From an uncultured Eubacteriales bacterium (lineage in GTDB: Bacteria > Bacillota > Clostridia > Peptostreptococcales > Anaerovoracaceae), in assembly GCA_902795135.1 (NCBI GenBank), contig CADBJW010000023.1, forward strand, positions 1-42,336: a stretch of DNA of 42,336 nt, written 5' to 3'. This document shows positions 1,451 through 41,880 of this stretch, in pieces (the stretch's first letter is position 1; each line of letters begins with the position of its first letter). A program made the position numbers and the translations under genes. Under the pieces are notes generated by a model. The model was given only the letters and a program-made list of their open reading frames with translations. It was not told the DNA's origin and searched no databases.

Positions 1451-1490
1451 TGTGTCAAAGGGAACGAATTCCTTTTGGCACACTTTTTAT
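1451..1490 (+). terminator. Terminator after argH paralogue
   Basis: A stem of GTGTCAAAGGGAA with TTCCTTTTGGCACAC is followed by TTTTTAT. It forms the left terminus of repeat copy A and probably ends the argH-paralogue transcript. Confidence 0.6.
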
Positions 1491-1759
1491 GTTTGGTTGT
1501 ATCGCCAGGCGGCCGGCAGGACAGCACCCGCGCGTTGTCCTCGCCGCTGGCGATCACCACGGCTCACTCACAGAGAATCGAACGCCACCGAAACTCGGGA
1601 CTTCATCCCTCAGACAGTCGGTGGCGTTTTGCTATTCTCTGGGCTCGTTTCGCCGGTGATCGCGGCAGCGCCTGCGGATTCGCGCGGGCGCTGTCCCCGC
1701 CGGCCGCCTGGCAACAACCCATACACAACAATCGGTAAAGAACCGTCCCCTTTGACACA
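1451..1759. repeat. Palindromic ~305-bp repeat, copy A
   Basis: The element begins with TGTGTCAAAGGGAACG, 9 bp after the argH-paralogue stop, and ends with AACCGTCCCCTTTGACACA, so its ends are inverted repeats. Inside are perfect 14-bp arms at 1504-1517 and 1699-1712 (GCCAGGCGGCCGGC and its complement). There are further internal stems and a central stem of about 11 bp (AACGCCACCGA/TCGGTGGCGTT, about 1580-1630). The whole unit can fold as one long hairpin. The left end, TGTGTCAAAGG with its complement and a T-run at 1451-1490, also looks like an intrinsic terminator for the upstream gene. Open frames across it are by-products of GC-rich palindromes. Related copies lie at 2099, 13977, 31149 and 41798. 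Confidence 0.85.
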
Positions 1760-2098
1760 ACTAATTACAATGACCAAGGTTAATGCGCTACGCGGCAATA
1801 GGGTTTGCTTGACTTGCGCGATTTACATCATAACTTGTGAAATCATATCCGGAGCGGAAGTTTATAGGAACGATATAGTGATAGATTAAGATGGCCCAGT
1901 TTTTTCGAATAATTCAATATTCTGAGCCGAGCGGCCCAGAATCAAACAAAACAGAAAAAAACTGTGCCAAGTCCTAGCCATCAATCAGAGCTGCCCAAAC
2001 CATGGTTCCTATTCATTCAGCCAAGCAATTCAATACAAGCTCGTTTTTGGATCCTATATCATCCGATTTGTACGATAATTTGTGCGATAAAGTGAGGC
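1760..2098. other. Gene-free spacer between two repeats
   Basis: About 340 bp lie between repeat copies A and B. I see no credible gene: the frame opening at 2002 has no ribosome binding site and runs into repeat B. The only clear structure is the nested inverted repeat at 1892-1969. The base composition is more AT-rich than the flanking repeats. Confidence 0.5.
1892..1969. repeat. Nested inverted repeat, 78 bp
   Basis: The outer arms TGGCCCAGTTTTTTC (1892-1906) and GAAAAAAACTGTGCCA (1954-1969) pair with one mismatch and one bulge. An inner hairpin, ATTCTGAGCC (1919-1928) with GGCCCAGAAT (1933-1942), sits between them with a GAGC loop. It is not related in sequence to the 305-bp repeat. It could be a separate small palindromic element or a bidirectional terminator. 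Confidence 0.55.
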
Positions 2099-2405
2099 AT
2101 GTCAATGAGGATGGTTCTTTTTACTTTTGGGTGTATGAATGTTCGGCAAAGGGCTGGAGGGACCGTGCCAGTACGAATCCCGCAGGAGCTGTAACGATCA
2201 CCGGCGAAATGAACGAAGAAAATAGCCAAACGCCACCGACTGTTTGAGGGCGAAGTCCCGAGTTTCGGTGGCGTTCTATGCTCCGTGAATGAGCCGTTGT
2301 GATCGCCAGCGACGAGGACAACGTGCGGGCACGGTCCTGCCATGCCCTTGCCGAAGCAACCAAACACAAAAATCTGACAAAAAGAACCATCTCAATTGAT
2401 ACATT
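2099..2405. repeat. Palindromic ~305-bp repeat, copy B (inverted)
   Basis: This is the same family as copy A but in the opposite orientation. The core GATCACCGGCGAA...CGCCACCGACTGTTTGAGGG (about 2195-2250) matches the reverse complement of copy A. The ends are degenerate inverted repeats: ATGTCAATGAGGATGGTTC on the left and AAAAGAACCATCTCAATTGA on the right. Its right end lies 14 bp upstream of the carB -35 box. It is the only copy here that does not touch a stop codon. Confidence 0.8.
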
Positions 2406-2419
2406 TTCACATAAAGTGC

Positions 2420-2448
2420 TTGCATAAATATGTGCGTCTATGTATAAT
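2420..2448 (+). promoter_or_regulatory. carB promoter
   Basis: TTGCAT (2420-2425), a 17-bp spacer and a perfect TATAAT (2443-2448) form a near-consensus sigma-A promoter. Transcription should start near 2455. The overlapping TGCATAAATATGTGC has weak dyad symmetry and lies where an ArgR-type operator could sit, but the match is too poor to call. Confidence 0.8.
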
Positions 2449-2466
2449 CATAAATAACAACCGAAA

Positions 2467-2493
2467 CAGGCAACCAGCGTTGCTTGTTTTTTT
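2467..2493 (+). terminator. Intrinsic terminator in the carB leader
   Basis: CAGGCAAC (2467-2474), loop CAGC and GTTGCTTG (2479-2486) form an 8-bp stem with one G-U pair, followed directly by seven T residues (2487-2493). It lies about 12 nt downstream of the predicted transcription start and 32 nt before the carB ATG, so carB transcripts must read through it. This is the layout of an attenuator, though the transcribed stretch before the hairpin is too short for a classical anti-terminator. Confidence 0.7.
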
Positions 2494-2524
2494 GAGAAAA
2501 CGATGATAGGGGAGGATGGCATCA

Positions 2525-5500
2525 ATGCCCAAGAAAGACAACTTAAAAAAGATACTGATTATAGGGTCCGGGCCGATCGTAATCGGTCAGGCAGCGGAAT
2601 TTGATTATGCTGGGACCCAGGCCTGTAAAGCGATTCGGGAAGAGGGAATCGAGACGATTCTGATCAACAGCAATCCGGCAACGATCATGACGGATAAGCA
2701 TGTGGCAGACAAGGTTTACATGGAGCCTTTGACCGAAGAAACGGTGGAACAGGTGATCATAAAAGAAAGACCGAACGGTATGCTGGCCGGATTCGGAGGG
2801 CAGACCGGCCTGAACCTAGCCATGGAAATGGAGCACAAAGGCATTCTCTCCAAATACAACGTTGAGCTTTTGGGCGTCAACCGGCAGAGCATCAAAAAAG
2901 CAGAAGACCGAGAAGCTTTTAAGTCCCTCATGGAGGAAATTGAGGAACCGGTTCCTGCCAGTGTGATTGCGACCACCATTCAGGAATGCCACGACTTCAT
3001 TGAGCAGGAGGGACTTCCGGTCATCATTCGTCCTGCCTACACACTCGGTGGAACGGGTGGCGGCATCGCCGAAACCATGGAGGAGCTGGACGAGCTCTGC
3101 TACAAAGGCATGGAGAGCAGCGCCATCGGACAGATTTTGCTCGAAAAATCCGTGGCAGGCTGGAAGGAAATCGAATACGAAGTCATGCGGGACGGAGCAG
3201 ACAACTGCATCATTATCTGTGACATGGAAAACGTGGATCCCGTCGGCGTGCACACCGGGGACAGCATCGTCGTTGCGCCGACCCAGACCATCACAAAAGA
3301 AGAAAATGAGATGCTCAAAAAAGCATCCATTAAAATCATAAAAAGCCTTGGCATCGAAGGCGGGTGCAACATCCAGTTTGCCCTGGATCCGGACAGCGGG
3401 AAATACATCGTCATCGAAGTCAACCCGCGGGTCAGCCGCTCGTCCGCGCTGGCCTCAAAAGCGGCCGGGTATCCCATTGCCAGAATCGCTGCCAAGATCG
3501 CCCTGGGTTACAATCTGGACGAGATCCGCAACAGCGTATCAGGCGGAACGGCATTTTTCGAGCCGAAGCTGGACTACATCGTGGTCAAATTCCCAAGATG
3601 GCCATTCGATAAATTCCGGACCGCGTCGAGAAAACTGGGAACACAGATGAAGGCGACCGGGGAAGTCATGTCCCTTTGCAAAAGCTTCGAAAGCGCTTTG
3701 CTAAAGGCCCTGACATCGGTGGAAATCAAATGCGACGGCCTGCACACGCCAACCGTATCGGTACTGGGGGATGTGGAACTGCTCGCCAAGCTCAAAAACT
3801 GCGACGACGAACGGATCTTTTGTATCGCGGAAGCGCTGCGCAGAGAGCTCATGACCATTGAAGAACTGTATGAAGCGACTAAGATCACACCGTGGTTTTT
3901 GGAGAAAATCAAGTACTTGATCGATCTGGAGAAACAACTTAAAGACGGGCCGCTGACCAAAGAACTGCTCATGGAAGTGGAAGCCAAAGGCTTTACGGAT
4001 AACGACATCATAGAGCTTTCCGGGGTGCCTCGGGAGGTCATTCAGGACATCCGTATCTACAACGATATCTATCCGGTATATAAGAAAGTCGACACCAGTG
4101 GCGGCAAGTCAGCCGTTTCAACGCCGTACTACTACTCCTGTTACGACAAGGGAGACGAAAACGAAATCACCGATAGAGATAAGATCCTGGTCATCGGATC
4201 GGGTCCGATCCGGATCGGACAGGGCATCGAGTTTGACTATTGCTGCGTACAGGGCGTCAACGCCATTCGTGAGATGGGATACGATGCCATCATCGCAAAC
4301 AACAATCCGGAAACGGTCAGCACGGACTCGGATATTTCGGATAAGCTGTACTTTGAAGCGCTGCACATCGATGACGTGATGAACATCATTAAGCGGGAGC
4401 GTCCGGTTGGCGTAATCGTGCAGTTTGGAGGACAGACCTCCCTGAATCTGGCGGAGAAACTGTCGAGCCGTATGATCAACCTGCTGGGCACCTCGTACAA
4501 AAGCATCGATCTGGCGGAAGATAGGGAAAAATTCCATGCCCTTTTGAAAGAGCTGCACATTACCACACCAAAAGGCTTTGCTGTAACGGAAGAAGAGGAG
4601 GCCTTCCGCGCCGTAAAGAATCTAGGGTATCCGGTTGTCGTCCGGCCGTCTTACGTCATTGGCGGACGTGCCATGCAGGTGGTATATAGCGACGAAGAAC
4701 TGCTCAGTTATCTGCGGGAAGCCGTATCCCTGTCCAAGGAGCATCCGGTCCTGATCGACCAGTATGTCTCCGGCAAAGAAATCGAAGTGGACGCCATATC
4801 CGATGGAGAAGACGTACTGATTCCGGGAATCATGGAACACGTCGAGCGGGCAGGAGTCCACTCAGGCGACAGCATTTCCGTCTATCCGAATTATTCTCTT
4901 CCGAAGGAAGTGGAAGACACCCTGGCCGTTTATACGAGAAAAATCGCAAAAGCATTGAACGTAGTCGGATTGGTCAATATTCAGTATGCTTATGACGGCA
5001 AAACGATCTACGTCATCGAGGTGAATCCACGGGCATCCAGAACCGTACCGATCCTGAGCAAAGTCACCGGCGTGCCAATGGTCAAACTGGCTGTTGCGGC
5101 TATGATGGGCAAAAGCTTAAAGGATTGCGGTTTCGGAACGGGGCTTTATAAAAAGAGCAGCAAGTATTCGGTCAAAGTTCCCGTGTTCTCCAGCGCAAAG
5201 CTCACCGACATGGACATCGCTTTAGGACCGGAGATGAAATCCACCGGAGAAGTTCTGGGAATCGACGAAGATCTGGACAAGGCACTTTACAAAGGCTTTG
5301 TGGCCGCCGGAACCAACATCCCGACAGAAGGCAATATCTTCGCAACCCTGCGCCGGTCGGAACTGACCCCTGAAACAGCGGAAATCCTGAAACGCTATAT
5401 TGAAGCGGGATTCAAACTGTACGTTTCCGACGATAACGTGGACTTTGTAAAAGAACATGGCATTCCGGCAGAGGAAATGGATTATTCGACAGCCATTCGC

Positions 5501-5731
5501 TGGATCGGGAATCACGACCAGAAGAGCGACTGTAAAATCTCTCTGGTTATGAACGTGCCGGAGATGGCAAACAGTAAAGAAAACGACAGCTTCCCAGTTC
5601 GGAGAAAATCCGTGGAGAGGGGAATACCGACCATGACCTGTATGGATACAGCAAAGGCATTCCTCAAGGTCATCAAGCTGAAACAACAGGGCGTGAAGCT
5701 TTCTTACCATGAACTGGGCGATGAGGCATAA
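2525..5731 (+). CDS. carB: Carbamoyl-phosphate synthase large subunit
   Basis: CarB (1068 residues, normal length) makes carbamoyl phosphate from bicarbonate, two ATP and ammonia supplied by the CarA glutaminase. It feeds arginine and pyrimidine synthesis. The sequence shows the two homologous halves, each opening with an IGSGPIxIGQ nucleotide-binding segment and carrying an ATP-grasp domain. A C-terminal allosteric (MGS-like) domain lies from about residue 930. I place the start at the ATG at 2525, because GGGGAGG ends at 2515, giving 9 nt spacing. The ATG at 2516 directly touches that motif. No carA is adjacent: upstream are repeats, downstream argG. The arginine genes next door suggest an arginine-directed role. 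Confidence 0.97.
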   Translation: MPKKDNLKKILIIGSGPIVIGQAAEFDYAGTQACKAIREEGIETILINSNPATIMTDKHVADKVYMEPLTEETVEQVIIKERPNGMLAGFGGQTGLNLAMEMEHKGILSKYNVELLGVNRQSIKKAEDREAFKSLMEEIEEPVPASVIATTIQECHDFIEQEGLPVIIRPAYTLGGTGGGIAETMEELDELCYKGMESSAIGQILLEKSVAGWKEIEYEVMRDGADNCIIICDMENVDPVGVHTGDSIVVAPTQTITKEENEMLKKASIKIIKSLGIEGGCNIQFALDPDSGKYIVIEVNPRVSRSSALASKAAGYPIARIAAKIALGYNLDEIRNSVSGGTAFFEPKLDYIVVKFPRWPFDKFRTASRKLGTQMKATGEVMSLCKSFESALLKALTSVEIKCDGLHTPTVSVLGDVELLAKLKNCDDERIFCIAEALRRELMTIEELYEATKITPWFLEKIKYLIDLEKQLKDGPLTKELLMEVEAKGFTDNDIIELSGVPREVIQDIRIYNDIYPVYKKVDTSGGKSAVSTPYYYSCYDKGDENEITDRDKILVIGSGPIRIGQGIEFDYCCVQGVNAIREMGYDAIIANNNPETVSTDSDISDKLYFEALHIDDVMNIIKRERPVGVIVQFGGQTSLNLAEKLSSRMINLLGTSYKSIDLAEDREKFHALLKELHITTPKGFAVTEEEEAFRAVKNLGYPVVVRPSYVIGGRAMQVVYSDEELLSYLREAVSLSKEHPVLIDQYVSGKEIEVDAISDGEDVLIPGIMEHVERAGVHSGDSISVYPNYSLPKEVEDTLAVYTRKIAKALNVVGLVNIQYAYDGKTIYVIEVNPRASRTVPILSKVTGVPMVKLAVAAMMGKSLKDCGFGTGLYKKSSKYSVKVPVFSSAKLTDMDIALGPEMKSTGEVLGIDEDLDKALYKGFVAAGTNIPTEGNIFATLRRSELTPETAEILKRYIEAGFKLYVSDDNVDFVKEHGIPAEEMDYSTAIRWIGNHDQKSDCKISLVMNVPEMANSKENDSFPVRRKSVERGIPTMTCMDTAKAFLKVIKLKQQGVKLSYHELGDEA

Positions 5732-5782
5732 CTCGAGAAGTTCAAGCAAAAAGTCTGAATAATATGTCTATTTGAAAGAGTA

Positions 5783-5810
5783 TTGATTTATATTCATTAT
5801 CATGTATAAT
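5783..5810 (+). promoter_or_regulatory. argG promoter
   Basis: TTGATT (5783-5788), a 16-bp spacer and TATAAT (5805-5810) precede argG by about 57 bp. The -35/spacer region TTGATTTATATTCATTA resembles an ArgR box (TGAAT-N4-ATTCA), but its spacer is one base short and one half-site has a mismatch, so the operator is only possible. Confidence 0.7.
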
Positions 5811-5866
5811 CATACGCATAGAACGTGAACTATTGAATCACGACAACGTTATGGAGGAGGAGAAAA

Positions 5867-7138
5867 ATGGCTAAGGAAAAAGTTATACTTGCGTACTCAG
5901 GAGGACTGGACACGTCCGTCATCATGAAGTGGTTAAAGGAGAACTACGATTATGATGTAATCGCTGTTTGTTGTAATGCCGGTCAGAAAGAGGATTTTAA
6001 GGCAATCGAAGAAAAAGCAATCAAGACCGGTGCGATTAAAGCAATGACCATCGATCTGAGAGAGGAATTTATCACGGATTATATCTGGCCGACGTTGAAG
6101 GCTGGTGAATCTTATGAAAACTATCTGTTGGGAACATCCATGGCAAGACCGCTTATGGCGAAAAAACTGGTGGAGATCGCACAGAAGGAAGGCGCTTTCT
6201 ACATTGCACACGGATGTACCGGCAAGGGCAACGATCAGGTTCGTTTCGAAACTTCAATTCATGCTCTGGATCCGGCCATCAAGATCATTGCTCCTTGGAG
6301 AATGGCGGATTGGGAATTCAGTTCCAGAGAAGAACTGATCCAGTATTCCATCGATCATGATATTCCGATTTCACAGTCCACAGAGAAAATCTATTCCAGA
6401 GACGAAAACATCTGGCATATCAGCCATGAAGGCGGAGAACTGGAGAACCCATGGAACGAGCATTATGAGACCATTCACGTTCTGAGCGTTCCACCAGAAA
6501 AGGCACCGGATGAAGTGACTTATGTGGACATCGACTTTGAACAGGGAATTCCGGTTGCGCTGGATGGCGAAAAACTGGGACCGATCGAACTGCTCACCAA
6601 GCTCAATGAACTGGGCAGCAAGAATGGAATCGGAACCATCGATATTGTTGAGAACCGTCTTGTAGGTATGAAATCCAGAGGCGTTTATGAAACTCCGGGC
6701 GGAACCATTCTGTTTGCCGCTCATGCCGGACTGGAAGAGCTGATTCTTGACCGGGATACGGCCCACTACAAAAAAATCGTAGGCGAAAAATATGCGGAAA
6801 TCCTGTACAACGGCCTTTGGTTTACACCGCTCAGAGAAGCAATCTGCGCCTTTGTCGATGTGACTCAGAAGAATGTTACCGGAACCGTCAAGATGAAGCT
6901 GTACAAAGGCAATGCCATTGTAGCTGCCAAGAAGTCGCCATACTCACTCTACAATGAAGAGTTTGCGACATTCAGTAAGGACGAGGTTTACAACCAGTTC
7001 GATGCGGAAGGCTTCATCAACCTGTGGTCATTGCCGCTCAAGATCCGTGCAATTCAGAAAGAGACAGCCGAGGGAGGTGCGAAGTATCATGAAACTCTGG
7101 AAAGGAAGGTTCTCAAAGCAAGCGACTTCGTCGAGTGA
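5867..7138 (+). CDS. argG: Argininosuccinate synthase
   Basis: ArgG joins citrulline and aspartate with ATP to give argininosuccinate. The ATP-pyrophosphatase P-loop AYSGGLDTS lies at residues 9-17, and the conserved [14 protein letters not shown] block, which binds citrulline and aspartate, lies near residues 117-130. GGAGGAGG before the ATG sets the start. At 423 residues it is slightly longer than the usual 400-410. Its last 16 codons overlap the beginning of argH, whose ATG lies inside the argG frame. This tight overlap indicates co-transcription and probable translational coupling. Confidence 0.97.
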
Positions 7139-8450: not shown

Positions 8451-8478
8451 CCAGTGAGCTTACGTGCTCACTCTCCCC

Positions 8479-8519
8479 AAAAAGGGTCGCAAACCGAGAG
8501 GAGTTGCGGTCCTTTTTTT
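8479..8519 (+). terminator. Terminator after argGH
   Basis: AAAAAGGGTCGCAAAC pairs imperfectly with GTTGCGGTCCTTTTTTT, giving a hairpin followed by a run of seven T residues. A smaller hairpin, AGTGAGC/GCTCACT, precedes it directly after the argH stop. Together they close the arginine operon. Confidence 0.75.
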
Positions 8520-8530
8520 GCGGCTTCAGC

Positions 8531-8559: not shown

Positions 8560-8609
8560 AAGACTATCTGCAAAAGGCACAAGCCTAGATAAAAACAAAG
8601 GAAATCCAT

Positions 8610-10914: not shown

Positions 10915-10931
10915 CGGAAGGAGAATACACG

Positions 10932-13889: not shown

Positions 13890-13926
13890 GGCCGTTGCAT
13901 GAACAATTCATGGAGCGACCTTTTTT
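13890..13926 (+). terminator. Terminator of the hypA-met operon
   Basis: A 14-bp imperfect stem (13890-13903 with 13907-13920, loop CAA) is followed by six T residues. It lies 18 bp after the flavin-reductase stop. Confidence 0.85.
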
Positions 13927-13976
13927 ATTTCCTGCGGGAGCGCATGGTGACTTCACGCATGTCCTCGTAGCAGTAC

Positions 13977-14280
13977 GTGTCAGTTCCTCTGCTCTTTGCT
14001 ATTTTCGAGTATGATCATTGAGAAGAGGGCCAGCGGGGCAGTGCCAGCGCGATTCCGCAGGAGCTGCTACGATCACCGGCGATACGAGCAAAGAGAATAG
14101 AAAAACTCCATCGACTGTTTGAGGGACGAAGTTCCGAGTTTCGATGGAGTTCTACTCTCTGTGAGTGAGCCGTCGTGATCGTCAGCGACGAGGACGACGC
14201 GCGGACACTGATCCGCTGGCCCTTGCCCTAAATAATCAAGTTCTTGAAATGTGTCAAAAAGAACCGTCCCTTTTGACACA
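13977..14280. repeat. Palindromic ~305-bp repeat, copy C
   Basis: This copy has the same orientation as copy B. Concentric stems are visible: GGGCCAGCGG (from about 14026) with CCGCTGGCCC (about 14212-14222), ACGATCAC with GTGATCGT, and a central AACTCCATCGA/TCGATGGAGTT stem near 14106-14153. Copies A and B have CGCCACC and its complement in that central stem. The right end contains TGTGTCAAAA...TTTTGACACA (14250-14280), itself a perfect 10-bp palindrome, which ends exactly where the lemA stop codon begins. The left end is eroded (GTGTCAGTTCC at about 13978). Confidence 0.8.
14250..14280 (-). terminator. Repeat-derived hairpin abutting lemA stop
   Basis: TGTGTCAAAA and TTTTGACACA pair perfectly around AGAACCGTCCC. 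The hairpin is directly adjacent to the lemA stop (14281-14283, complement) and could terminate lemA, although no long U-tract follows on that strand. Confidence 0.4.
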
Positions 14281-14835
14281 TTAGAATTCTACTTTTACGT
14301 TTTCCCGCTCTGCGGCGCTTGCCACTTCGAACATTGGACGCTTGCCAAAGTGGAAGATGGTTGCGATGATATTGCTCGGGAAGGATTCGACTTTTGTATT
14401 CAGCTCCCGAACCGTTGCGTTGTAGTATTTCCTGCTGTTGGCAATGTCGTTTTCGATATCGTTCAGCTGTCTGCTCAGCTGCAGGAACTGCTGGTCTGCC
14501 TTCAGGTCCGGATAGGCCTCTGCCGTTGCGATTAGTCGTCCGAGTCCTGCGCCCAGTTCTTTATTGGCTGCAATCTTTTCTTCCTGACTCATGGCTTCGT
14601 AAGACTGCTTTCTCATGCTCGTCACCGATTCGAGGGTTGCTTTTTCATGCTCTGCATAGCCTTTGACCGTATTGACCAGATTCGGGATCAGATCCCATCT
14701 TTTCTTCAGGTAGACATCCATGGTCGCAAATGCCTCATCGATTTTGTTTCGCATTTTGATGAAACTGTTGTAACCGGTAATGGCATAAAGAACCAGCAGG
14801 ATACCAATTATGATAAAAACAATTAGAACCTTCAT
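14281..14835 (-). CDS. LemA family protein
   Basis: This 184-residue LemA-family membrane protein has one N-terminal membrane segment (about residues 3-21) followed by the family block YNSFIKMRNKIDEAFATMDVYLKKRWDLIPNLV and a helical bundle. LemA proteins are widespread. The molecular role is unclear; some act beside YgcG-like or protease partners. No such partner is adjacent here. GGAGG lies 8 nt before the ATG. The coding end touches repeat copy C. Confidence 0.93.
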   Translation of the reverse strand: MKVLIVFIIIGILLVLYAITGYNSFIKMRNKIDEAFATMDVYLKKRWDLIPNLVNTVKGYAEHEKATLESVTSMRKQSYEAMSQEEKIAANKELGAGLGRLIATAEAYPDLKADQQFLQLSRQLNDIENDIANSRKYYNATVRELNTKVESFPSNIIATIFHFGKRPMFEVASAAERENVKVEF

Positions 14836-28939: not shown

Positions 28940-29028
28940 TCAGATTTGAGCCAATCAATATAAATAAAATGTAAGATAGTATTTGTTGGTTCTTGAGTAC
29001 TTTTCTTTCAGAAAATAGTATAATGATA

Positions 29029-29034
29029 CATGGA
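29029..29034 (+). promoter_or_regulatory. -10 box before the subtilase gene
   Basis: A perfect TATAAT lies 27 bp before the ATG at 29062. The nearest -35-like hexamer (TTGAGT) is 20 bp away, which is too far, so an activator or other context may be needed. Confidence 0.5.
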
Positions 29035-29061
29035 AAAATAACGATGAAAGAGGAGTGCGAG

Positions 29062-31146
29062 ATGATCCGAGGATCAAAGAATAAGATCAAACGCTTCATA
29101 ACAATACTATGCACCATAAGTATGACTTTCTTTGGGATCGGTAGTTTTGCGTACGCGCAGCCTACCGATCCTTTTGCTGATTATATGGCCGATAATGTGG
29201 AAATCGTTGTAGCCGATTCTGCCCAGCAGGCAGCGGAAGCCGTTCCGGCAGAAAATAACGAAAAGTTCTATAAAGTTGACATGACCAATGGAGATGTCAA
29301 GACAGGAAACGATGAAACGGTGAAGGACGGCTTTGAAAAACTGTATGGCGAAAGCTATGCAGAATCCGGCCTGGAGGATGCCAGCAAAACCAAGCAAAAG
29401 CAGCAGATTGAGCAGATGACAAGCGAGTCGGAGATGTATTCCTTAAATCAAATCGAAGGAAACACCGCAGAAGTCACATCCCAATTCGCCACATGCCGGC
29501 TCCTGGTCAAAACCACCAACATCAGCAACACCTATGGTGCCTTGAGCGGAACGCAGATTTCTGGTTTTTGCATATTGAAATATGCGGATGAGAAAACGAC
29601 GGCGGAGGCGTACAAAGCCCTTTGCAAAGAGTTCGGTACAGAAAATGTTCTGAAGGATATGCCCATCAAGGGGCAGGACGACTTAAACGAGAGCGGTTTG
29701 AAAGGATCGGAAACCGGTACAAACTGGAGCTACGACTATATGGAGTTCAAAAAAGCGGTGGATCCGCTGGAATTGAGAGGGAATGATGTGGTCGTGGCAG
29801 TCCTTGACACCGGTATCATGAAATCCCATAAAGCCTTTGAAGGAACCTATATAAAGGATGGATATAATTTTGTTGATGTGAATACGGATGTGTCCGATAA
29901 AAACGGACACGGGACGGTCAGCTCCAGTGTCATCGCCCAAAGTACGGGCATGAACGTGAGCATTTTACCGGTCAAAGTCCTGGATGACAATGGGGACGGC
30001 AGTGAAGTGGACCTGATTCTGGGATTAAACTATGCGGAAGAAAAGGGTGCGATAATCGCCAATGTCAGCTTGGGCGGTTCCTTGGATGATGAAGATCTGG
30101 CTGCAATGGAAACAGCCTTTGATGGTTACAGCGGAATCATCATTGCGGCGGCCGGAAACTCCGGATACGACGTCAGAAATAACAATTTCTGGCCGGCCGT
30201 ATCCGATCGAGTCATTTCCGTTAGCGCATTAAAAAACACTGGAAACAACACGGCTGCCTTTGATGCTTCCTATTCCAATTTCGGGGAATGCATCGATTAT
30301 ACGGCTCCGGGTACGGGCATTTATGGCGCGGCGTTAGACAATACTTATACGTACAAGTACTACAAAGGAACGTCCTTTGCCTCACCGCACGTGGCAGCTG
30401 CTGCGGCCCTTGTCATGTCCAACGACAAAACCATCGATACCCAGAGTGAAATGGTGGCGGCCCTCAACAAAATCTCGAAAGATGAAGGGGATGCCGGCTT
30501 TGATATCTATTGCGGAAACGGATGTCCAATTCTCGGGAATCTGACCATTAAAGAGCCGGCACCAACAGAAACTCAACCGACTACTTCCGCGCCGGTGGTG
30601 ACCAAACCAAAAGTTGTGGTTGTCAATATCAGCAATGCAAAGGCTTATGCCGCATCCATGACCTATACGGGAAAAGCGCTCAAGCCACTGCCATCGGTCA
30701 GCTATGGCGGAAAAACGCTGAAGAACGGCACGGACTATACGGTAAGCTACAAGAACAATAAGAAGGTTGGTAAGGCGACCGTGACCATCACGGGAAAGGG
30801 CAATTATAAAGGAACCAAGTCCATTAGCTTCAAGGTAAATCCAAAAGGAACATCCCTTAAGAAAATCAGCCGTTCCAAGAAAGCCCTGACCGTAAAATGG
30901 AAGAAGCAGAAGACTAAAATGTCGACTTCCAGAATCACCGGCTATCACATCCAGCTTGCCACCAACAGCAAGTTTACGGCAAACGTAAAGAACGTATACG
31001 TCAAAGGCTATTCCAAGAAATCCAAAAAAATCAAGAAATTAAAGAAAAAGAAAAAGTACTACGTCCGCGTTCGTACGTATAAAACCATCAGCGGAACCAA
31101 GTACTACTCCAACTGGTCAAAGGTAAAATCCGCAAAGACCAAATAA
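29062..31146 (+). CDS. Secreted S8 (subtilisin-like) protease with cell-surface modules
   Basis: This 694-residue exported serine protease starts at the ATG at 29062 after AGAGGAG; earlier in-frame ATGs lack a site. A signal peptide runs to AYA-Q near residue 32, followed by a prodomain of about 190 residues. The catalytic domain has Asp249 (VAVLDTG), His283 (NGHGT), Asn366 (AAGNSG) and Ser438 (GTSFASPH). A Thr/Pro linker is followed by an Ig-like YTGKALKP...YTVSYKNNKKVG module, common on surface proteins of gut Clostridia, and a very Lys-rich fibronectin-III-like end with pI far above neutral. No sortase motif is visible. The basic tail may hold it to the anionic wall. Confidence 0.93.
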   Translation: MIRGSKNKIKRFITILCTISMTFFGIGSFAYAQPTDPFADYMADNVEIVVADSAQQAAEAVPAENNEKFYKVDMTNGDVKTGNDETVKDGFEKLYGESYAESGLEDASKTKQKQQIEQMTSESEMYSLNQIEGNTAEVTSQFATCRLLVKTTNISNTYGALSGTQISGFCILKYADEKTTAEAYKALCKEFGTENVLKDMPIKGQDDLNESGLKGSETGTNWSYDYMEFKKAVDPLELRGNDVVVAVLDTGIMKSHKAFEGTYIKDGYNFVDVNTDVSDKNGHGTVSSSVIAQSTGMNVSILPVKVLDDNGDGSEVDLILGLNYAEEKGAIIANVSLGGSLDDEDLAAMETAFDGYSGIIIAAAGNSGYDVRNNNFWPAVSDRVISVSALKNTGNNTAAFDASYSNFGECIDYTAPGTGIYGAALDNTYTYKYYKGTSFASPHVAAAAALVMSNDKTIDTQSEMVAALNKISKDEGDAGFDIYCGNGCPILGNLTIKEPAPTETQPTTSAPVVTKPKVVVVNISNAKAYAASMTYTGKALKPLPSVSYGGKTLKNGTDYTVSYKNNKKVGKATVTITGKGNYKGTKSISFKVNPKGTSLKKISRSKKALTVKWKKQKTKMSTSRITGYHIQLATNSKFTANVKNVYVKGYSKKSKKIKKLKKKKKYYVRVRTYKTISGTKYYSNWSKVKSAKTK

Positions 31147-31148: not shown

Positions 31149-31286
31149 TGTGTCAAAAGGGACTGAATGGCTACTTGTTAAGTAGACAGTCAAAAAAAGC
31201 AAACGTTTCTCTCCAGCTCCAATCGGGGCTGGAGTTTTTATGCGGCCATCGGGTAGCTGACACAAAATAGAAAGAACCGTCCCTTC
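31149..31286. repeat. Short derivative of the palindromic repeat family (copy D)
   Basis: It starts TGTGTCAAAAGGGACTG two bases after the subtilase stop and ends AAAGAACCGTCCCTT (31271-31285). These are the two termini of the 305-bp family, but the large palindromic core is absent. In its place is a terminator hairpin, CTCCAGC/GCTGGAG. It ends 16 bp before the -35 box of the sucrose operon. Confidence 0.7.
31211..31239 (+). terminator. Terminator after the subtilase gene
   Basis: A 10-bp stem with one G-U pair (31211-31220 with 31225-31234, loop AATC) is followed by TTTTT. Confidence 0.88.
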
Positions 31287-31301
31287 CCATGCACTTTCAA
31301 A

Positions 31302-34429: not shown

Positions 34430-34435
34430 CAGAAG

Positions 34436-35068: not shown

Positions 35069-36470
35069 ATTGAATAGGAACGAACGTCCCGTATTCCATC
35101 TGACACCGGAAAGAGGTTGGATGAATGATCCAAACGGATTCAGTCGATACGACGGGAAATACCACCTGTTTTATCAGGCCTACCAGGATAGCGTCCAGTG
35201 GGGTCCGACCCGGTGGGCCCATGTGGTCAGCGAAGATCTGATCTCGTGGGAGCGTCTCCCGGATGCCCTTGTGCCGGACCAGGATTATGATATTGGCGGC
35301 TGCTTTTCGGGAACGGCATTGACCTGCGAAGATGGACGACACATGCTCATGTATACGGGCTTTCGGCCCGATCCTGAAGACACACAGGGACGCGGATTGC
35401 AGACACAATGCATCGCCTTTGGAGATGGAAGAACCTACGAGAAATATGACGGCAATCCGGTCATTACGGGAGCTATGCTGCCGGATGGTGGGGACCCGCG
35501 GGAGTTCCGGGATCCAAAAATATGGCGCGAAGCAGACGGAACGTTCCGGGCTGTAATGGCCAATTACAACCGGATCCACGGCGCACAGATTCTGTTGTTT
35601 CAAAGTCCGGACGGGCTGAAATGGGAATTCATGAATGTGCTGGCAGACGGCGCGGGAAAACCCGGATGGATGTGGGAATGTCCAGACTTCTTTTCCTTGG
35701 ACGGCAAGCAGGTTTTGCTGGCCGGCACCATGGGAGATGTGGACAGCATCTGCAGGATCGGAACCTACGACAGTGAGCAGGGGATTTTTCACGAACACTC
35801 CTGGCAGAGCACGGAGCAGGGCTTCGATTTCTACGCGGGACAAACCGTTCAGACACCTGATGGAAGGCGCGTTTTGATTGGATGGATGCAAAACCCTCAA
35901 ACGGCGGAGCACAGAGAAATCGACCTTCCCATCAACGGACAGATGAGCATTCCCAGAGAGCTGCAGATTCTGGACGGGAAGCTTTTGCAAAAGCCCGTTA
36001 CAGAGTTGAACGGTTACCGGACGGACGAAGTCACATGCCGAAACGTGAAACTCGATACCGACGAAGAAGTCAGGCTGGACGGCATCGCGGGAAGAACGGT
36101 GGATATGGAGATTCGGGTGGAACCCGCTGACCGCTATGAATTATTCCAAGTGCGGTTTGCGAAAGACGCGGAACACTATACCGAATTCACCTATGAGCCG
36201 GAGTTGTCTGTGGCGACCCTTGACAGAAGTCATGCGGGACCCGGGAAAACGAAGCTCACAAAGGCACAGACGGCGGTGCGAGACCGTAGCGGCAGGCTGG
36301 ACATCCGAATCCTGCTGGACCGACTCAGTGCGGAAGTATTCATCAACGATGGAGAGCAGGTCATGTCAGCTGTGATCTACACAGACAGACATGCAGAAGA
36401 TATAACCTTCTATGTGAAAGGTACCGCGGTAATGAATATTGCGAAGTACCGGATAAAGGAGAACAAATAA
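35046..36470 (+). CDS. GH32 beta-fructofuranosidase (sucrose/fructan hydrolase)
   Basis: This 474-residue glycoside hydrolase family 32 enzyme cleaves terminal beta-fructosyl bonds. The three catalytic elements are present: nucleophile Asp28 in WMNDPNG, transition-state Asp156 in FRDPK and acid/base Glu211 in ECPD. The five-bladed propeller is followed by a C-terminal beta-sandwich from about residue 330. There is no signal peptide, so it acts in the cytoplasm on imported sucrose, sucrose-6-phosphate or small fructans. An ABC importer rather than a PTS favours the unphosphorylated sugar. The start overlaps the YesL-like gene, and the stop overlaps the next ATG by one base. Confidence 0.95.
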   Translation: MMNQRLSELNRNERPVFHLTPERGWMNDPNGFSRYDGKYHLFYQAYQDSVQWGPTRWAHVVSEDLISWERLPDALVPDQDYDIGGCFSGTALTCEDGRHMLMYTGFRPDPEDTQGRGLQTQCIAFGDGRTYEKYDGNPVITGAMLPDGGDPREFRDPKIWREADGTFRAVMANYNRIHGAQILLFQSPDGLKWEFMNVLADGAGKPGWMWECPDFFSLDGKQVLLAGTMGDVDSICRIGTYDSEQGIFHEHSWQSTEQGFDFYAGQTVQTPDGRRVLIGWMQNPQTAEHREIDLPINGQMSIPRELQILDGKLLQKPVTELNGYRTDEVTCRNVKLDTDEEVRLDGIAGRTVDMEIRVEPADRYELFQVRFAKDAEHYTEFTYEPELSVATLDRSHAGPGKTKLTKAQTAVRDRSGRLDIRILLDRLSAEVFINDGEQVMSAVIYTDRHAEDITFYVKGTAVMNIAKYRIKENK

Positions 36471-37591
36471 TGGCAAGTTTATCATTAAAAGGAATCCAGA
36501 AGATTTACCCGAACGGTTATCATGCCGTAACGGATTTTAATCTGGAAGTGGAGGACAAAGAGTTTATTATCTTTGTCGGACCTTCAGGATGCGGAAAGTC
36601 GACGACTCTGCGTATGATCGCCGGACTGGAAGACATCTCTGAAGGGGAGTTCAGGATCGATGGCGTTCTGATGAATGACGTCGAACCAAAGGACAGAGAC
36701 ATTGCGATGGTATTCCAGAGCTATGCACTCTATCCGCATATGACCGTTTATGACAACATGGCTTTTGCACTGAAACTGAGAAACGTTCCGAAGGATGAAA
36801 TCGATGAGAAGGTGCGGGAAGCTGCAAAGATCCTCGACCTGGAAAAGCTTTTGGATAGAAAGCCAAAGGCCCTTTCCGGCGGACAGAGACAGCGTGTCGC
36901 TATGGGACGTGCCATTGTCAGAAGTCCGAAAGTTTTCCTCATGGACGAACCGCTTTCGAACTTGGATGCGAAGCTGAGAGTACAGATGCGTACAGAAATC
37001 TCGAAGCTCCATGAGAAACTGGGAACGACGATCATCTACGTAACACATGACCAGACGGAAGCCATGACACTGGGAACCAGAATCGTCGTTATGAAGGACG
37101 GTATCGTGCAGCAGATCAATACGCCGGAACATCTGTACAATAAACCATGCAACCTGTTCGTTGCCGGATTTATCGGATCACCGCAGATGAACTTTATCGA
37201 TGCGGTTGTAGGAGTGGACGGCGACAAGGTTACACTGACCGTTGGCGACAACGTGCTGATCGTACCGGACGAAGAAAAGCAGGTACTGATCGACGGTGGA
37301 TATGACGGTAAGACCGTTGTTCTGGGTATCCGTCCGGAAAACATTTCGGATGATCCTGCCTTCCTGGAAGCAAACCAGGATCACGTCATCAAGACCAACA
37401 TCAAAGTTCACGAAATGCTGGGCGCAGAAGTGTTCCTGTACTTTGATGTAAACGGCACACAGATGACAGCCCGTGTCGCTCCTGACTCATCGCTGAGAGC
37501 AGGATCCGAGGCAACACTGGCCTTCGATATGGATAAGATTCACCTGTTCGATAAGGAAACAGAAAAGAATCTTCTGCATCCGGAGTGGTAA
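36470..37591 (+). CDS. msmK: Sugar ABC transporter ATPase (MsmK/UgpC type)
   Basis: This 373-residue ATPase of CUT1 importers has Walker A GPSGCGKST (37-45), Q-loop VFQSYALYPHM, signature LSGGQ (135-139), Walker B VFLMDE (155-160) and the H-loop His193. A C-terminal TOBE regulatory domain follows from about residue 240. Many Clostridia supply a single shared MsmK from elsewhere. Here the ATPase is encoded in the same operon, directly overlapping the GH32 stop, so the transporter is self-contained. Confidence 0.94.
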   Translation: MASLSLKGIQKIYPNGYHAVTDFNLEVEDKEFIIFVGPSGCGKSTTLRMIAGLEDISEGEFRIDGVLMNDVEPKDRDIAMVFQSYALYPHMTVYDNMAFALKLRNVPKDEIDEKVREAAKILDLEKLLDRKPKALSGGQRQRVAMGRAIVRSPKVFLMDEPLSNLDAKLRVQMRTEISKLHEKLGTTIIYVTHDQTEAMTLGTRIVVMKDGIVQQINTPEHLYNKPCNLFVAGFIGSPQMNFIDAVVGVDGDKVTLTVGDNVLIVPDEEKQVLIDGGYDGKTVVLGIRPENISDDPAFLEANQDHVIKTNIKVHEMLGAEVFLYFDVNGTQMTARVAPDSSLRAGSEATLAFDMDKIHLFDKETEKNLLHPEW

Positions 37592-37610
37592 GGAACAAAG
37601 GCACCGGAGC

Positions 37611-38969
37611 ATGTCAGAACTCGATTATCGTGAAGCCCAAAAGCTCGCGACAAGAGAATACAAAAAAGCTATAGCACGGGGGGAATCCCCGTATCCCATC
37701 GGTCTGGAGAACATCGTTTCTTCCGGACAGATGTCGGCCGGGCGGAATCTGGGACTGGAACAGATTCCGCTGGCTCTGGTGGTTGGAACGAAGCACGAGG
37801 GGCGTAATAACGCGTTTGCGCGGAATTTTATGCCCCTTCTTAGTCGTTCCTCAGAATTTGCAGAGAAGTGGAGAACTCTTTGCAGCGCCCACTTATCAGA
37901 GGGAATCCGCGAACCGGTCAAACTGTATGAGTACCGGAACCGGTTCTATGTGGAAGAAGGAAACAAGAGGGTAAGCGTACTGAAGTATTTTGAAGCGGAC
38001 AGCATCGATGCCTACGTGACCCGGATTCCTTCTGCCCAGGATGGCACATTGGAGGCAGAACGTTACGAAGCGTTTCTGCCATTCTATCAATGGAGCGGAC
38101 TCAGAACCGTGGAGTTTTCTGAGCCGGAATCCTATGCACATTTACAGATGCTCATGGGCAAAAGCCCAGGAGAGGTCTGGACGGAGGAAGAACGAAAGGA
38201 TTTTCTTTCTTTTTACTACTACTTCCATAAGGAGTATGAGAGTTTGGGGAAGATGAAAACCCTTCGGATTCTTTGCGATGACATGCTGTCTTTTATAGAA
38301 CAGCATGGATACAGGAAAGTCTGTGAAGCGAGCCCTTTGCAGCTGAAAGAACTGATTCGTCAGCCGGTTCGGAAACCGATGAAAATTCTGGCCCTTGCGG
38401 ACGACGAGTCGAAGTATTACTACGATCATTACACTCCGGGGAAGCTGGATGATTTTGATTTGATCCTTGCTTGCGGAGATTTACATAAAGTATATTTGGA
38501 ATTTCTTACAACCATGGCGCCTTGTCCGGTTTTGTATGTGCGTGGCAATCACGACGACATGCTGAACGAGGATCCGCCAGGTGGATGCATTTGCATCGAG
38601 GACACGGTCTTTGAGTACAAAGGCCTTCGAGTTGCCGGTCTGGGCGGTTCCTTCAAATACCGCGAAGGCAGAAACACCTTTACCGAAGCGGAAATGGAAA
38701 AGCGTGCGCGGAAACTCGAAAAAGCAATTCGAAAACACGGCGGCGTGGATGTGCTGGTTACACATGCCCCAGCCCGAGGGGTGAACGATTTTGATTCGAT
38801 TTCCCATAGAGGCTTTGAGGCATTCAATCGCTTTATTACCAAACATCACCCGGCCTATTTCGTTCACGGCCACATTCACAAGAACTATGGAATCCATATC
38901 CCTCAGAGAAGCGAGTGGAATGGAACGACCGTCATCAACGCATACGAACATTGTGTATTTCAGATATAG
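37611..38969 (+). CDS. ParB-like domain fused to a metallophosphoesterase
   Basis: This 452-residue protein has two parts. Residues 1-250 contain a ParB/sulfiredoxin-like module: VGTKHEGRNNAFARNFMPL, then YRNRFYVEEGNKRVSVLKYF at about 108-127, where EGNKR aligns with the D/E-G-x-x-R element of ParB-like folds. Residues 257-452 are a calcineurin-type phosphoesterase with ACGDLH, GNHDD, VTHAP and HGHIH. The first metal motif reads ADDES rather than DxH. I recall the N-terminal module also attached to Bmp-type binding proteins in Lachnospiraceae, a recollection I could not check. Its place between the ATPase and the kinase suggests a sugar- or nucleotide-linked regulatory role, which is unproven. 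Confidence 0.7.
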   Translation: MSELDYREAQKLATREYKKAIARGESPYPIGLENIVSSGQMSAGRNLGLEQIPLALVVGTKHEGRNNAFARNFMPLLSRSSEFAEKWRTLCSAHLSEGIREPVKLYEYRNRFYVEEGNKRVSVLKYFEADSIDAYVTRIPSAQDGTLEAERYEAFLPFYQWSGLRTVEFSEPESYAHLQMLMGKSPGEVWTEEERKDFLSFYYYFHKEYESLGKMKTLRILCDDMLSFIEQHGYRKVCEASPLQLKELIRQPVRKPMKILALADDESKYYYDHYTPGKLDDFDLILACGDLHKVYLEFLTTMAPCPVLYVRGNHDDMLNEDPPGGCICIEDTVFEYKGLRVAGLGGSFKYREGRNTFTEAEMEKRARKLEKAIRKHGGVDVLVTHAPARGVNDFDSISHRGFEAFNRFITKHHPAYFVHGHIHKNYGIHIPQRSEWNGTTVINAYEHCVFQI

Positions 38970-38981
38970 GAGGCAGTTAGC

Positions 38982-39938
38982 ATGACACAGATCATGACAC
39001 TTGGGGAGGTCCTGATTGACCTGACCCAGACAGGAACCGATAAGAATGGGATTCCGCAGTTTGCTGCGTTCCCGGGAGGCGCGCCGGCCAACGTTGCGGT
39101 TGCAGCGTCCCGGCTTGGTGCAAAAGCCGGATTCATCGGCAAAATCGGCAAAGACGCATTCGGGCAACAGCTGTGCGAAACACTGGAACAAGATCATGTG
39201 GATACTTCGTATCTTTTTGCGGCAGAGAACGTTCCGACCACACTGGCCATCGTCTCCGTCGACGAGAGGGGAGAACGAAGTTTTTCCTTTTACAGAAATC
39301 CGGGTGCGGACACGCAGTTGACGGAGAAGGAGTCCACTGCATTTCTGAACGGAGAACTGCCTTTTGTCCTGCACTTCGGCTCTCTGAGCCTGACGGCAGA
39401 ACCGTCCAGAGGAGCGGCCTTAGCTGCCGTGCAGCGGGCACGGGAGAAGGGCGTTTTGATTAGCTATGACCCGAACTATAGGGCGGCCCTTTGGAATAGC
39501 GAAGGGGAAGCGATCGATTGGATGAAAGCGCCTCTGGAACTGGTCGACATTCTAAAAATATCGGACGAAGAGCTGCTCCTGCTAACGGGAACCGAGGATC
39601 TGGAAGAGGGAAGCAAACGACTTGGGGAGCACGGCATCCGTTTGATTATGATCACCCTTGGAAGCGAAGGCGTGTTTTATCGCTTAGCGGGAGGTTCAGG
39701 TCAGGAGGACTTGCTGGGCAAAGTTCCTGCTGAACCCGTCAACGTGTGCGATACCAACGGAGCAGGGGATACATTTTTAGGAGCTGTCCTGGCCCGGATC
39801 GTGGATCATGGCAGCATTCCTACAGAGCGAAGTGTCTTAGAAGATTTCCTGACCTTTGCAAACCGGGCGGCGGCACTTACATGCTCCAGACCCGGCGCAA
39901 TCCCGGCTATGCCGATGGCCGAAGAACTGGTGAAATAA
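38982..39938 (+). CDS. Fructokinase (PfkB family)
   Basis: This 318-residue ribokinase-fold sugar kinase has GGAPANVAVAASRLG near residues 32-46 (substrate side) and the ATP/anion-hole motif DTNGAGDTF with catalytic base Asp263. It most likely phosphorylates the fructose released by the GH32 enzyme to fructose-6-phosphate. PfkB members can also use other ketoses, so the assignment leans on context. GGAGG lies 9 nt before the ATG and 12 bp after the preceding gene. Confidence 0.92.
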   Translation: MTQIMTLGEVLIDLTQTGTDKNGIPQFAAFPGGAPANVAVAASRLGAKAGFIGKIGKDAFGQQLCETLEQDHVDTSYLFAAENVPTTLAIVSVDERGERSFSFYRNPGADTQLTEKESTAFLNGELPFVLHFGSLSLTAEPSRGAALAAVQRAREKGVLISYDPNYRAALWNSEGEAIDWMKAPLELVDILKISDEELLLLTGTEDLEEGSKRLGEHGIRLIMITLGSEGVFYRLAGGSGQEDLLGKVPAEPVNVCDTNGAGDTFLGAVLARIVDHGSIPTERSVLEDFLTFANRAAALTCSRPGAIPAMPMAEELVK

Positions 39939-39961
39939 CAGAATTTCGGAGATGGATAGAT

Positions 39962-41818
39962 ATGAGCAAACAAACAAAAGCACAGATGCTGGAAGAACTG
40001 AAATGGTTGTATATGGAGCTCTACGATAATGAAGAAGCTTTTGCGTATTTCGAAAAGGTGCTGCAAAAGAACGCCGATGCCCGAAGACCAGCCCTTCGCG
40101 CACTTGATGAGGCCCGGCAGGAAGGACCGGATTGGTATCAATCCCACAAACTTCTAGGTATGATGCTCTACGTGCAGAATTTCGGCGGGACGCTTAAGGA
40201 AGTCAAAAAGCATTTGTCCTATCTGGAAGAGTGCGGAATCAATTATCTGCACCTGATGCCTTTGCTTGATTCACCCAAAGGAAAGAGCGACGGGGGATAC
40301 GCGGTTTCGGATTTCAAAAAGGTCAGACCGAAGCTGGGGACCATGGAGGATCTGGAGTCTCTGGCCGATGCCTGCCACGAAAAAGGCATTGCCTTGTGCC
40401 TGGATTTCGTCCTGAATCATACCAGCGAGGAACATGCCTGGGCAAAAGCCGCCAAAGCCGGTGACAAGACGGCTCAGGACCGGTTTTTTGTCTACGATTC
40501 CTGGGAGATTCCAAACCAGTTTGAGAAGACGGTTCCGGAGGTATTTCCGACGACGGCACCGGGAAACTTCACCTGGTGTGAAGAGATGCAAAAGGTCGTC
40601 ATGACCTGTTTTCACGACTATCAGTGGGATTTGAATTACGCAAATCCTATGGTTTTCAACGATATGGTGGACAATCTGCTGTATCTGGCAAACCGGGGGA
40701 TGGACGTCATCCGTCTCGATGCCATTCCATATATCTGGAAGCAGCTTGGAACGAACTGTAGAAATCTTCCGCAGGTGCATACGCTGGTGCGTATGATGCA
40801 TCTGGCCTGTCAGCTTGTCTGTCCGGGCGTGGCGCTTTTGGGCGAAGTGGTCATGGAACCACGGGAAATCGTTCCGTATTTCGGACCGGCCGAGAAGCCA
40901 GAATGCGACATTTTATATAACGTTACGACCATGTGCACAACGTGGCATACGCTGGCAACCCGCGATGTGAGACTGCTCCAGTACCAGATGGAACAGGTCT
41001 GCAGGCTGCCGGAAAACTGTTATTTCCAGAATTATCTTCGCTGCCACGATGACATTGGATGGGGGCTGGACTACCGCTATCTGGGACAGTTTGGCATCGG
41101 CGAGGAACCGCACAAACGTTATCTGAATGACTGGTTTACGGGCAAATGGCCGGGAAGCTGGTCGCGGGGAGAACTCTACAATAACGCGGAATCTTTGGGA
41201 GACGCCAGAGCCTGCGGGACGACGGCATCCCTATGCGGACTGGAATGCGGCATTCTGGAAGCCTTGGATAACAAAGGCAGCGCCTCACTGGACCGCGGAC
41301 TTCAGTGCGATTTGATGATGCATGCATGGATGTTCAGCCAGACCGGCATACCGGTGATCTACAGCGGCGATGAGATTGGGCAGCTCAATGATTACAGCTA
41401 TCACGACGACCCGTCTCACTGGGAAGACAGCCGGTATGTGCATCGCGGCAAATTCGATTTCGATCTGGCAGAAAAACGCTTTGAAGTGGGCACCATGCAG
41501 CAGATCCTCTTTGACGGGCTGCAGAAATTGAAAGATACGAGAGCCCAGTATGACGCATTTCGAAGTGACGCCGATGTATTCGTATACTACACCGGCGACG
41601 ACCGCGTCATGGGATTGCTCCGCCGGTACGAGTCCCAAACCCTGATCTGCTTATACAACTTTTCGGAGCATCCTGCCGACGTGAAACTCCATGGCGAGGC
41701 TTGGAAAGACATCCTGAGCGGTGAAGAACTGACCGCATCCGGCGACGGAACCGCGATCCTACACTTCGACGGATACGGATACCGCTGGCTTATGGAATGT
41801 GTCAAAGGGTGTGTCTAA
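39962..41818 (+). CDS. Amylosucrase-like GH13 enzyme
   Basis: This 618-residue GH13 protein resembles the amylosucrase/sucrose-hydrolase group (GH13_4), which transfers or releases glucose from sucrose. The amylosucrase-like N-terminal helical region precedes the barrel. The nucleophile is Asp253 in VIRLDAIPYIWKQLGT, with acid/base Glu295 in LLGEVVMEP and His362-Asp363 in CHDDIGWG. The IWKQ.GT.C.NLPQ.H stretch is typical of amylosucrases. There is no signal peptide. The start is the ATG at 39962 after GGAGATGG; the open frame upstream overlaps the kinase. The last residues CVKGCV are encoded by the end of a repeat element. It would divert sucrose glucose into alpha-glucan, in competition with GH32. 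Confidence 0.9.
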   Translation: MSKQTKAQMLEELKWLYMELYDNEEAFAYFEKVLQKNADARRPALRALDEARQEGPDWYQSHKLLGMMLYVQNFGGTLKEVKKHLSYLEECGINYLHLMPLLDSPKGKSDGGYAVSDFKKVRPKLGTMEDLESLADACHEKGIALCLDFVLNHTSEEHAWAKAAKAGDKTAQDRFFVYDSWEIPNQFEKTVPEVFPTTAPGNFTWCEEMQKVVMTCFHDYQWDLNYANPMVFNDMVDNLLYLANRGMDVIRLDAIPYIWKQLGTNCRNLPQVHTLVRMMHLACQLVCPGVALLGEVVMEPREIVPYFGPAEKPECDILYNVTTMCTTWHTLATRDVRLLQYQMEQVCRLPENCYFQNYLRCHDDIGWGLDYRYLGQFGIGEEPHKRYLNDWFTGKWPGSWSRGELYNNAESLGDARACGTTASLCGLECGILEALDNKGSASLDRGLQCDLMMHAWMFSQTGIPVIYSGDEIGQLNDYSYHDDPSHWEDSRYVHRGKFDFDLAEKRFEVGTMQQILFDGLQKLKDTRAQYDAFRSDADVFVYYTGDDRVMGLLRRYESQTLICLYNFSEHPADVKLHGEAWKDILSGEELTASGDGTAILHFDGYGYRWLMECVKGCV

Positions 41819-41880
41819 AGAGACGGTTATTAGGGACGGGTGGAGCTTTGCTATTCTCTTGGCTCCCTTCTAAGCACACG
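41798..41880. repeat. Remnant of the palindromic repeat family (copy E)
   Basis: TGTGTCAAAGGG (41798-41809) is the conserved terminus and lies within the last codons of the amylosucrase-like gene. GTGGAGCTTTGCTATTCTCTTGGCTC (about 41840-41866) matches the 3' half of the central stem of copy A (1625-1650). Most of the core is lost. The 200-bp gap after it holds only this remnant and a promoter. Confidence 0.65.

Follow-up and report, generated by a model that had tools for sequence, protein, structure and literature searches.

The 42,336-nucleotide stretch of DNA analysed here (contig CADBJW010000023.1, positions 1 to 42,336, of assembly GCA_902795135.1, from an uncultured Eubacteriales bacterium of the Anaerovoracaceae; referred to below as the window) carries dispersed palindromic units of about 305 bp. 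These units are made of two separable modules, a pair of inverted hairpin ends and a nested palindrome core. The ends share their loop with hairpins that bracket genes of the RAYT type (REP-associated tyrosine transposases; REP, repetitive extragenic palindromic) in relatives, and the core belongs to a second, far wider family. The reading that we favour, with a probability of roughly 0.57, is that the unit was once moved by a TIRYT/RAYT transposase and carries a member of an apparently undescribed family of DNA palindromes recognised by their shape.

A first-pass annotation had described dispersed homologous repeats with strong folds in the window, and this description was confirmed. Copies A (1451..1759, plus strand, about 309 bp), B (2100..2404, minus strand) and C (14026..14282, minus strand) are mutually homologous (E values of 4e-59 for A-B, 6e-57 for A-C and 2e-50 for B-C) and, compared with 100 dinucleotide shuffles each, fold with z values of -11.1, -7.4 and -7.4. 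The end motif, at up to 3 mismatches, was matched twice in the window against 0.01 matches expected. The genome-wide search proposed at that time was carried out with copy A over the 2.08 Mb and 39 contigs of the resident genome (assembly 91% complete). It returned 17 match rows, comprising 7 long matches (at least 223 bp, A included), one match of A to its own reverse strand and 9 partial matches.

The annotation of A, B and C as three near-full copies with conserved inverted ends stands as to homology and shared boundaries, but not as to the state of the ends. Copy A begins 10 bp past the end of the open reading frame (ORF) at 104-1441. Its left end hairpin (1451..1482, plus) has a degenerate GGGAACGAATTCC loop, its core (1537..1678, plus) scores 153.5 bits with the core model R1, and its right end, GAACCGTCCCC, lies in inverted polarity at 1730..1759 (minus). 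Copy B, situated upstream of the ORF for the carbamoyl-phosphate synthase large subunit (2516-5731), has its core at 2179..2319 (minus) and an end hairpin, GAACCATCTC, on one side (2375..2403, plus), the opposite side (2100-2128) being half decayed. The core of copy C (14054..14195, minus) has the top R1 score listed, 158.5 bits. A single full end hairpin, TGTGTCAAAAGGGACGGTTCTTTTTGACACA, lies intact at 14250..14280 (minus), at the 3' end of the ORF 14281-14835 (minus); the other end is lost or unrecognisable, with a degenerate trace of an end at most near 13977. Two further units had been called a core-less derivative and a remnant, and both descriptions hold. Unit D (31149..31289, plus), which starts 3 bp past the end of the ORF 28993-31146, has both ends, TGTGTCAAAAGGGAC and AAGAACCGTCCC, with their polarity inverted; the interior that they enclose has no core match. 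Unit E (41798..41880, plus) overlaps the end of the ORF 39746-41818 and retains half of one end together with 27 bp of the core (41839-41865).

Ends and cores were then compared for their relative placement. The left-end 18-mer lies 56-75 bp from the core in five of the genome's own cores (B, C, L002, L005a and L007a; 16 cores or remnants viewed), the degenerate left hairpin of A has the same placement, and the inverted right-end 18-mer lies 51-71 bp from the core in A, B and L002. With up to 4 mismatches and 150 bp considered on either side, at least one end was present in the expected polarity at 7 of 13 own cores and in the wrong polarity at none. Within 150 bp of the 24 cores of genus mates (two with shortened flanks), no end was found at 4 mismatches and one at 5. 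Since the ends are found near own cores and are absent from those of genus mates, they belong to the copies of this genome and not to the core family. The first-pass view of one simple palindromic family was rejected on these grounds, the core spreading through genus mates and, beyond them, across phyla and into genomes without a match to Y1_Tnp.

The end module, TGTGTCAAAAGGGACGGTTCTTTTTGACACA, is a palindromic hairpin of about 30 bp that also occurs alone at several sites of the genome. A whole-genome scan gave 25 rows at up to 1 mismatch, palindromic sites being counted twice; at 2 mismatches the background is high (79 sites against 51 for the reversed pattern). The earlier statement that no transposase with these ends is present extends to the whole assembled genome (91% complete). 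The sole Y1_Tnp match is a short IS200-type gene, and ends of this type were not seen beside it when the locus was inspected by eye. The gene was rejected as the mover because no TGTGTCAA/GGGACGG ends were seen at its locus.

A link to Y1/RAYT genes in Firmicutes, suggested in the first-pass annotation, was borne out in relatives. From RAYT-type Y1 matches, 52 loci were picked, 4 of which had no ORF by the rule used; the remaining 48 RAYT-type ORFs encode 144-359 aa, several genomes contributing more than one. The stems vary among these loci and the loop GGGACGGTTC keeps recurring. In fixed windows and at 1 mismatch, inverted GGGACGGTTC loops bracket 11 of the 48 ORFs, in 8 genomes, the loop being found in the correct polarity upstream of 14 and downstream of 17. 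No bracket was obtained with the opposite polarity, with the reversed motif, with shuffled motifs or in any of 1359 random windows. The end hairpin of locus L082, GTGTCAACAGGGACGGTTCTTTTTGACAC, has a stem almost identical to that of the resident end module. Those of L126 and L130 are AAGGACAGGGGGACGTTTCTCTTGTCCTT and GAGTCAATAGGGACGGTTCTTTTTGACTC, the downstream partner at L130 lying 388 bp off, beyond the counting window. L096, with the hairpin GGGTCGGTTC, is the only RAYT-like gene in the 36 genus mates sampled. For the proteins of L082, L096, L126 (all bracketed) and L130 the best family is NF047646 REP_Tyr_transpos, over the cut-off in one of the four; Y1_Tnp is over the cut-off for L082, L096 and L130, and their C-terminal helix-turn-helix (HTH) matches are all below it.

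Genes of this type are probably subclass 2.1, which is RAYT group 1 (PMC6006769), or TIRYT, as they fit the descriptions in PMC6006769 and PMC3733652. According to PMC6006769, automatic and manual searches gave no REP-like sequences near subclass 2.1 genes. If the genes are of this subclass, as their length and HTH matches suggest, the ends described here would occur precisely in such a group; they provide the RAYT/TIRYT genes of Firmicutes with a defined hairpin substrate, constant in its loop and open to testing in vitro. In a TIRtron (TIR, terminal inverted repeat), the gene of a Y1 transposase extended at its C-terminus, the TIRYT, lies between terminal repeats in inverted orientation, and those ends are moderately abundant elsewhere (PMC3733652). 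The present system is alike in that inverted repeats flank a Y1 (HUH) gene, here in relatives only. It differs in that the resident unit has no such gene in the assembled genome and carries a nested palindrome, and in that the loop GGGACGGTTC sits in a hairpin stem. The motif GGGGWSAS, given for only some TIRs, is not matched here, the best candidate, GGGGACGG, being one position off. The double inverted repeats of Pseudomonas putida and P. fluorescens also join transposase-linked end units to an unrelated stem-loop, but theirs derive from GTAG-1 units (PMC3733652).

The core module is a nested palindrome of about 140 bp. Copy A matches 16 of 61 genomes, namely its own and 15 of 36 genus mates, all within the genus and mostly over the core; end-only matches were seen in G004, G013 and G028. 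For the alignment, 36 of 45 core matches were used (7 repeated sites already in another locus, and two, L174 and L187, were false). These cores align over 156 columns, with constant blocks that include GTCCTC, AAACTCG, CTCARACA and CTCCTGCGGA. The constant internal loops are GTCCTCGTCGC, GGCTCACTCAC, AAACTCG-loop-CTCARACAGT, TGTTCGTTTCGC and CTCCTGCGGA. Two-sided changes occur in 38 of 41 consensus pairs. Pairing is seen in 93.8% of cells, compared with 74.0% after shuffling and 32-44% when the partners are slid by 1-3 columns, and double-change cells number 299, compared with 79.5 and 15-43 respectively. Outside the constant blocks the arms pair copy by copy, 29 of 35 exceeding the 95th percentile of shuffled partners. 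When 247 genomes of the order were searched with model R1, 19 had members of the core family at an E value of 1e-4 or better; at most 13 candidates were scored per genome, so that copy numbers are lower bounds, and the weakest matches lie near the E limit.

The apical 22-mer of the core, AAACTCGCTTCGCTCARACAGT, reaches well beyond the order and was found in at least 119 stretches. Among the matches listed, eight phylum-level groups carry it, as read from record titles. Bacillota, Bacteroidota and Pseudomonadota are represented by named isolates (Selenomonas, Blautia, Elizabethkingia, Ralstonia and others), and Desulfobacterota, Nitrospirota, Campylobacterota, Gastranaerophilales and Patescibacteria by metagenome-assembled genomes only, for which contamination is possible. 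A search of 299 genomes of the phylum at up to 1 mismatch gave 74 sites, spread over 10 genomes, and none for the reversed pattern. In 101 distinct arm pairs around the 22-mer, the first eight positions are Watson-Crick paired in 723 of 808 cells (G-T 10, A-C 13) and all four Watson-Crick types are present at each; positions 9 and 10, outside these cells, are Watson-Crick in only 61 and 25 of the 101 pairs. When the first 60 of 112 usable sites were folded, at least 25 pairs enclosed the 22-mer in 51, the median z was -4.6 and z fell below -3 in 47 (15 shuffles each). The 22-mer sits in lineage-specific hairpins. A 22-base loop motif is kept across distant bacteria within stems that share no sequence. 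Such a pattern would require either a selfish mechanism common to these bacteria or a single, widespread protein able to read folded DNA, and it makes the persistence of palindromic repeats without a resident transposase a directly testable question.

The strong folds and the position of four of the five window units against an ORF 3' end could also be expected if the core were a structured RNA or a transcription terminator. However, Rfam at the gathering threshold gave no match in the window; 17 wider loci likewise had none at the motif, and lax settings yielded just two weak, unrelated matches. A G-U wobble, viewed from the complementary strand, appears as an A-C mismatch, and G-T should therefore be favoured if the helix formed in RNA of this strand. 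This is not seen: the core pairs contain 19 G-T and 34 A-C cells (132 and 152 with shuffled partners), and the 22-mer arms show no G-U excess either. Core pairing is maintained at the DNA level, with G-T no commoner than A-C. The 84 classified intergenic sites of the 22-mer (46 tandem, 19 convergent and 19 divergent, by a crude ORF caller) have no orientation preference. An RNA element was rejected on the absent Rfam match and on the G-T and A-C counts of the core, and the explanation as a whole, terminator included, is unlikely.

Plain REPIN/TIR repeats, with the core as a passive spacer within one RAYT-driven family, would account for the constant polarity of the ends beside the cores and for the RAYT brackets in relatives. 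In REPINs, two inverted REPs are paired around a spacer, and the likeness to the present units includes short hairpins, inverted pairs, the non-autonomous state and related transposases. A passive spacer does not agree with the lack of ends at all 24 genus-mate cores at 4 mismatches, nor with an apical loop that is kept across phyla, nor with the absence of a Y1_Tnp match from 7 of the 15 carrier genomes tested. The units differ from REPs and REPINs also in their low copy number, in the GTAG foot, which none of nine end hairpins viewed by eye possesses, and in the absence of a RAYT from the assembled resident genome. Because the foot and a resident RAYT are both missing, the unit is not called a REPIN here, although it works like a TIR repeat. 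This explanation is disfavoured and appears improbable.

A loop that is constant across phyla and scarce on mobile replicons might instead be a host signal, for replication, chromosome organisation or primase loading, and not a selfish repeat. One viral contig carries the 22-mer and plasmids and phages gave only a few weak matches; a phage- or plasmid-borne origin was rejected on this basis. In G581, a single contig, one of 24 sites lies more than 0.9 Mb from the skew-inferred origin (p 3e-4, post hoc) and 17 are oriented along the leading strand (p 0.06). Overlapping contig ends may have made two sites out of one, and with 23 sites the values are 4e-4 and 0.09. The chromosome half that surrounds the inferred terminus is avoided by the G581 sites, a post hoc observation from one genome. 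A host signal should hardly be as patchy as 10 of 299 genomes of the phylum, with no match in the E. coli collection at the sensitivity used, and copy number varies even within a genus (12 sites in G307 and 7 in G529; the copies viewed have constant loops and stems that, by eye, covary). A claim about position would need more than one genome. We consider a host signal to have a small chance only.

The 539 ORFs within 2.5 kb of the 22-mer at 120 loci, called crudely as above, were clustered, and no gene family specific to this neighbourhood was found. As candidate partner genes, the two largest clusters (9 and 7 loci) were rejected as ORFs across the palindrome itself in the six members viewed of each, and the third (7 loci) as ABC-transporter ATPases (3 members scanned), a common fold; the remaining clusters have 3 loci. 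Integron attC sites, whose stems are free and whose unpaired bases are constant, are recognised in their folded form and would work alike, but an attC-like site bound as a folded strand by a tyrosine recombinase is very improbable here and was rejected, since no RYYYAAC / GTTRRRY box pair occurs in the 36 cores with 45 bp on either side (a weak test, the reversed control also giving 0), and neither a neighbourhood-specific gene family nor cassette genes were seen.

Under the favoured reading, a RAYT-moved unit with a shape-recognised palindrome as its cargo, the 305-bp units would be non-autonomous derivatives of a TIRtron, similar to miniature inverted-repeat transposable elements (MITEs). 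Their inverted hairpin ends may have been recognised as single-stranded DNA by a TIRYT-type RAYT, a Y1 transposase with an HTH-like C-terminal part, which would have moved the units in trans and since been lost from the genome. The cargo would be a member of the nested palindrome family, whose constant loops could serve as recognition points, the freely changing stems merely keeping them in position as the strand folds. For the factor that recognises the core, the simplest candidate is a protein reading the loops left unpaired in the folded single strand. Transposition, an enzyme acting on the core and recognition by shape are what we infer from these patterns. We give somewhat less than even odds to a broader proposal, that the core represents an undescribed, bacteria-wide class of interspersed DNA element, about 140-300 nt long and folded as a concentric hairpin, with loops constant in eight phylum-level groups and stems free yet complementary as DNA, recognised in its shape by a common factor, independent of Y1 transposases and sometimes captured by RAYT-type ends. 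No description of these repeats was found by sequence or topic in the text of open-licence papers; those returned for the motifs were unrelated, judging from their titles.

Several results weigh against the reading. The first-pass proposal of a non-autonomous mobile unit is sustained by several copies, shared boundaries and inverted ends, but a matching transposase is absent from the assembled resident genome, inspection of A, B and C by eye revealed no target duplication, and movement itself is inferred. A clean empty site was found neither upstream of the carbamoyl-phosphate synthase gene (carB) nor at copy C, where the downstream gene order differs. At one locus of G307, which belongs to another genus, 7 of 22 genomes (G307 included) could be aligned across the entire locus; the element is kept in 7 of 7 and no recent movement is visible there. 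A MITE would have the terminal inverted repeats of a known element, no coding capacity and many copies. Here there are 7 long matches and the ends are related to RAYT-flanking repeats, and both ends are recognisable in only one of 13 own cores at 4 mismatches and in two at 5, a level at which the wrong polarity already gives 4. The L003 core is without any end. Among the RAYT-type ORFs, 37 of 48 have no bracket at 1 mismatch and the 48 are not all independent, and the hairpin of L096 has a different stem and a GGGTCGG loop. The core structure was derived from the same alignment that was used for the covariation count, though the slid controls are far lower.

Occupancy was compared upstream of carB at 23 loci drawn from 41 genomes; 6 of the loci, this genome's included, share the upstream gene. 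A and B are present here; by eye, four relatives with the same gene pair have no element, and in the fifth, L146, the site is occupied by a nested palindrome that has diverged. Site occupancy differs between species. In the genus of G307 and G529, copy L350 is identical to the Selenomonas record L221 over the stretch compared. At the G307 locus aligned above, the outer arms of L363 are unchanged but enclose, on both sides, a different and again complementary interior, which looks as if it had been swapped by conversion from another copy. Close pairs, which were not counted systematically, are often inverted, plus then minus (3 here, 3 in G022, 2 in G581 and 1 in G307); same-direction pairs were seen in G065 and G264, and minus-then-plus pairs were not seen.

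Some palindromes lie beside a gap (L230, about 5046-5172) or within about 70 bases of contig ends (G470), so that copy numbers in draft genomes may be too low. The palindrome of L346 is adjoined, at 1275-1449, by another dispersed repeat, one that is matched many times within that genus. In Bacteroidota members (L219-L338, for example L241, L294 and L304), a 5' stretch such as TTTTGTCTTGAAACAAAAG precedes TCAAGG, and a hairpin and pseudoknot could result; Ralstonia has CTTTCTTTGTCTTGCCAAAGAAAG. In the window, the stretch 2404-2515 after copy B contains a promoter-like TTGCATAAATATG..TATAAT and then GCAACC..GTTGC, and by eye is similar in several relatives without the element. Beside copy C, at 13895-13965, CATGGAGCGACCTTTTTTATTTCCTGCGGGAGCGCATG resembles by eye the left-hand flanking sequence of another core subfamily (L011, L007b) and is possibly a remnant.

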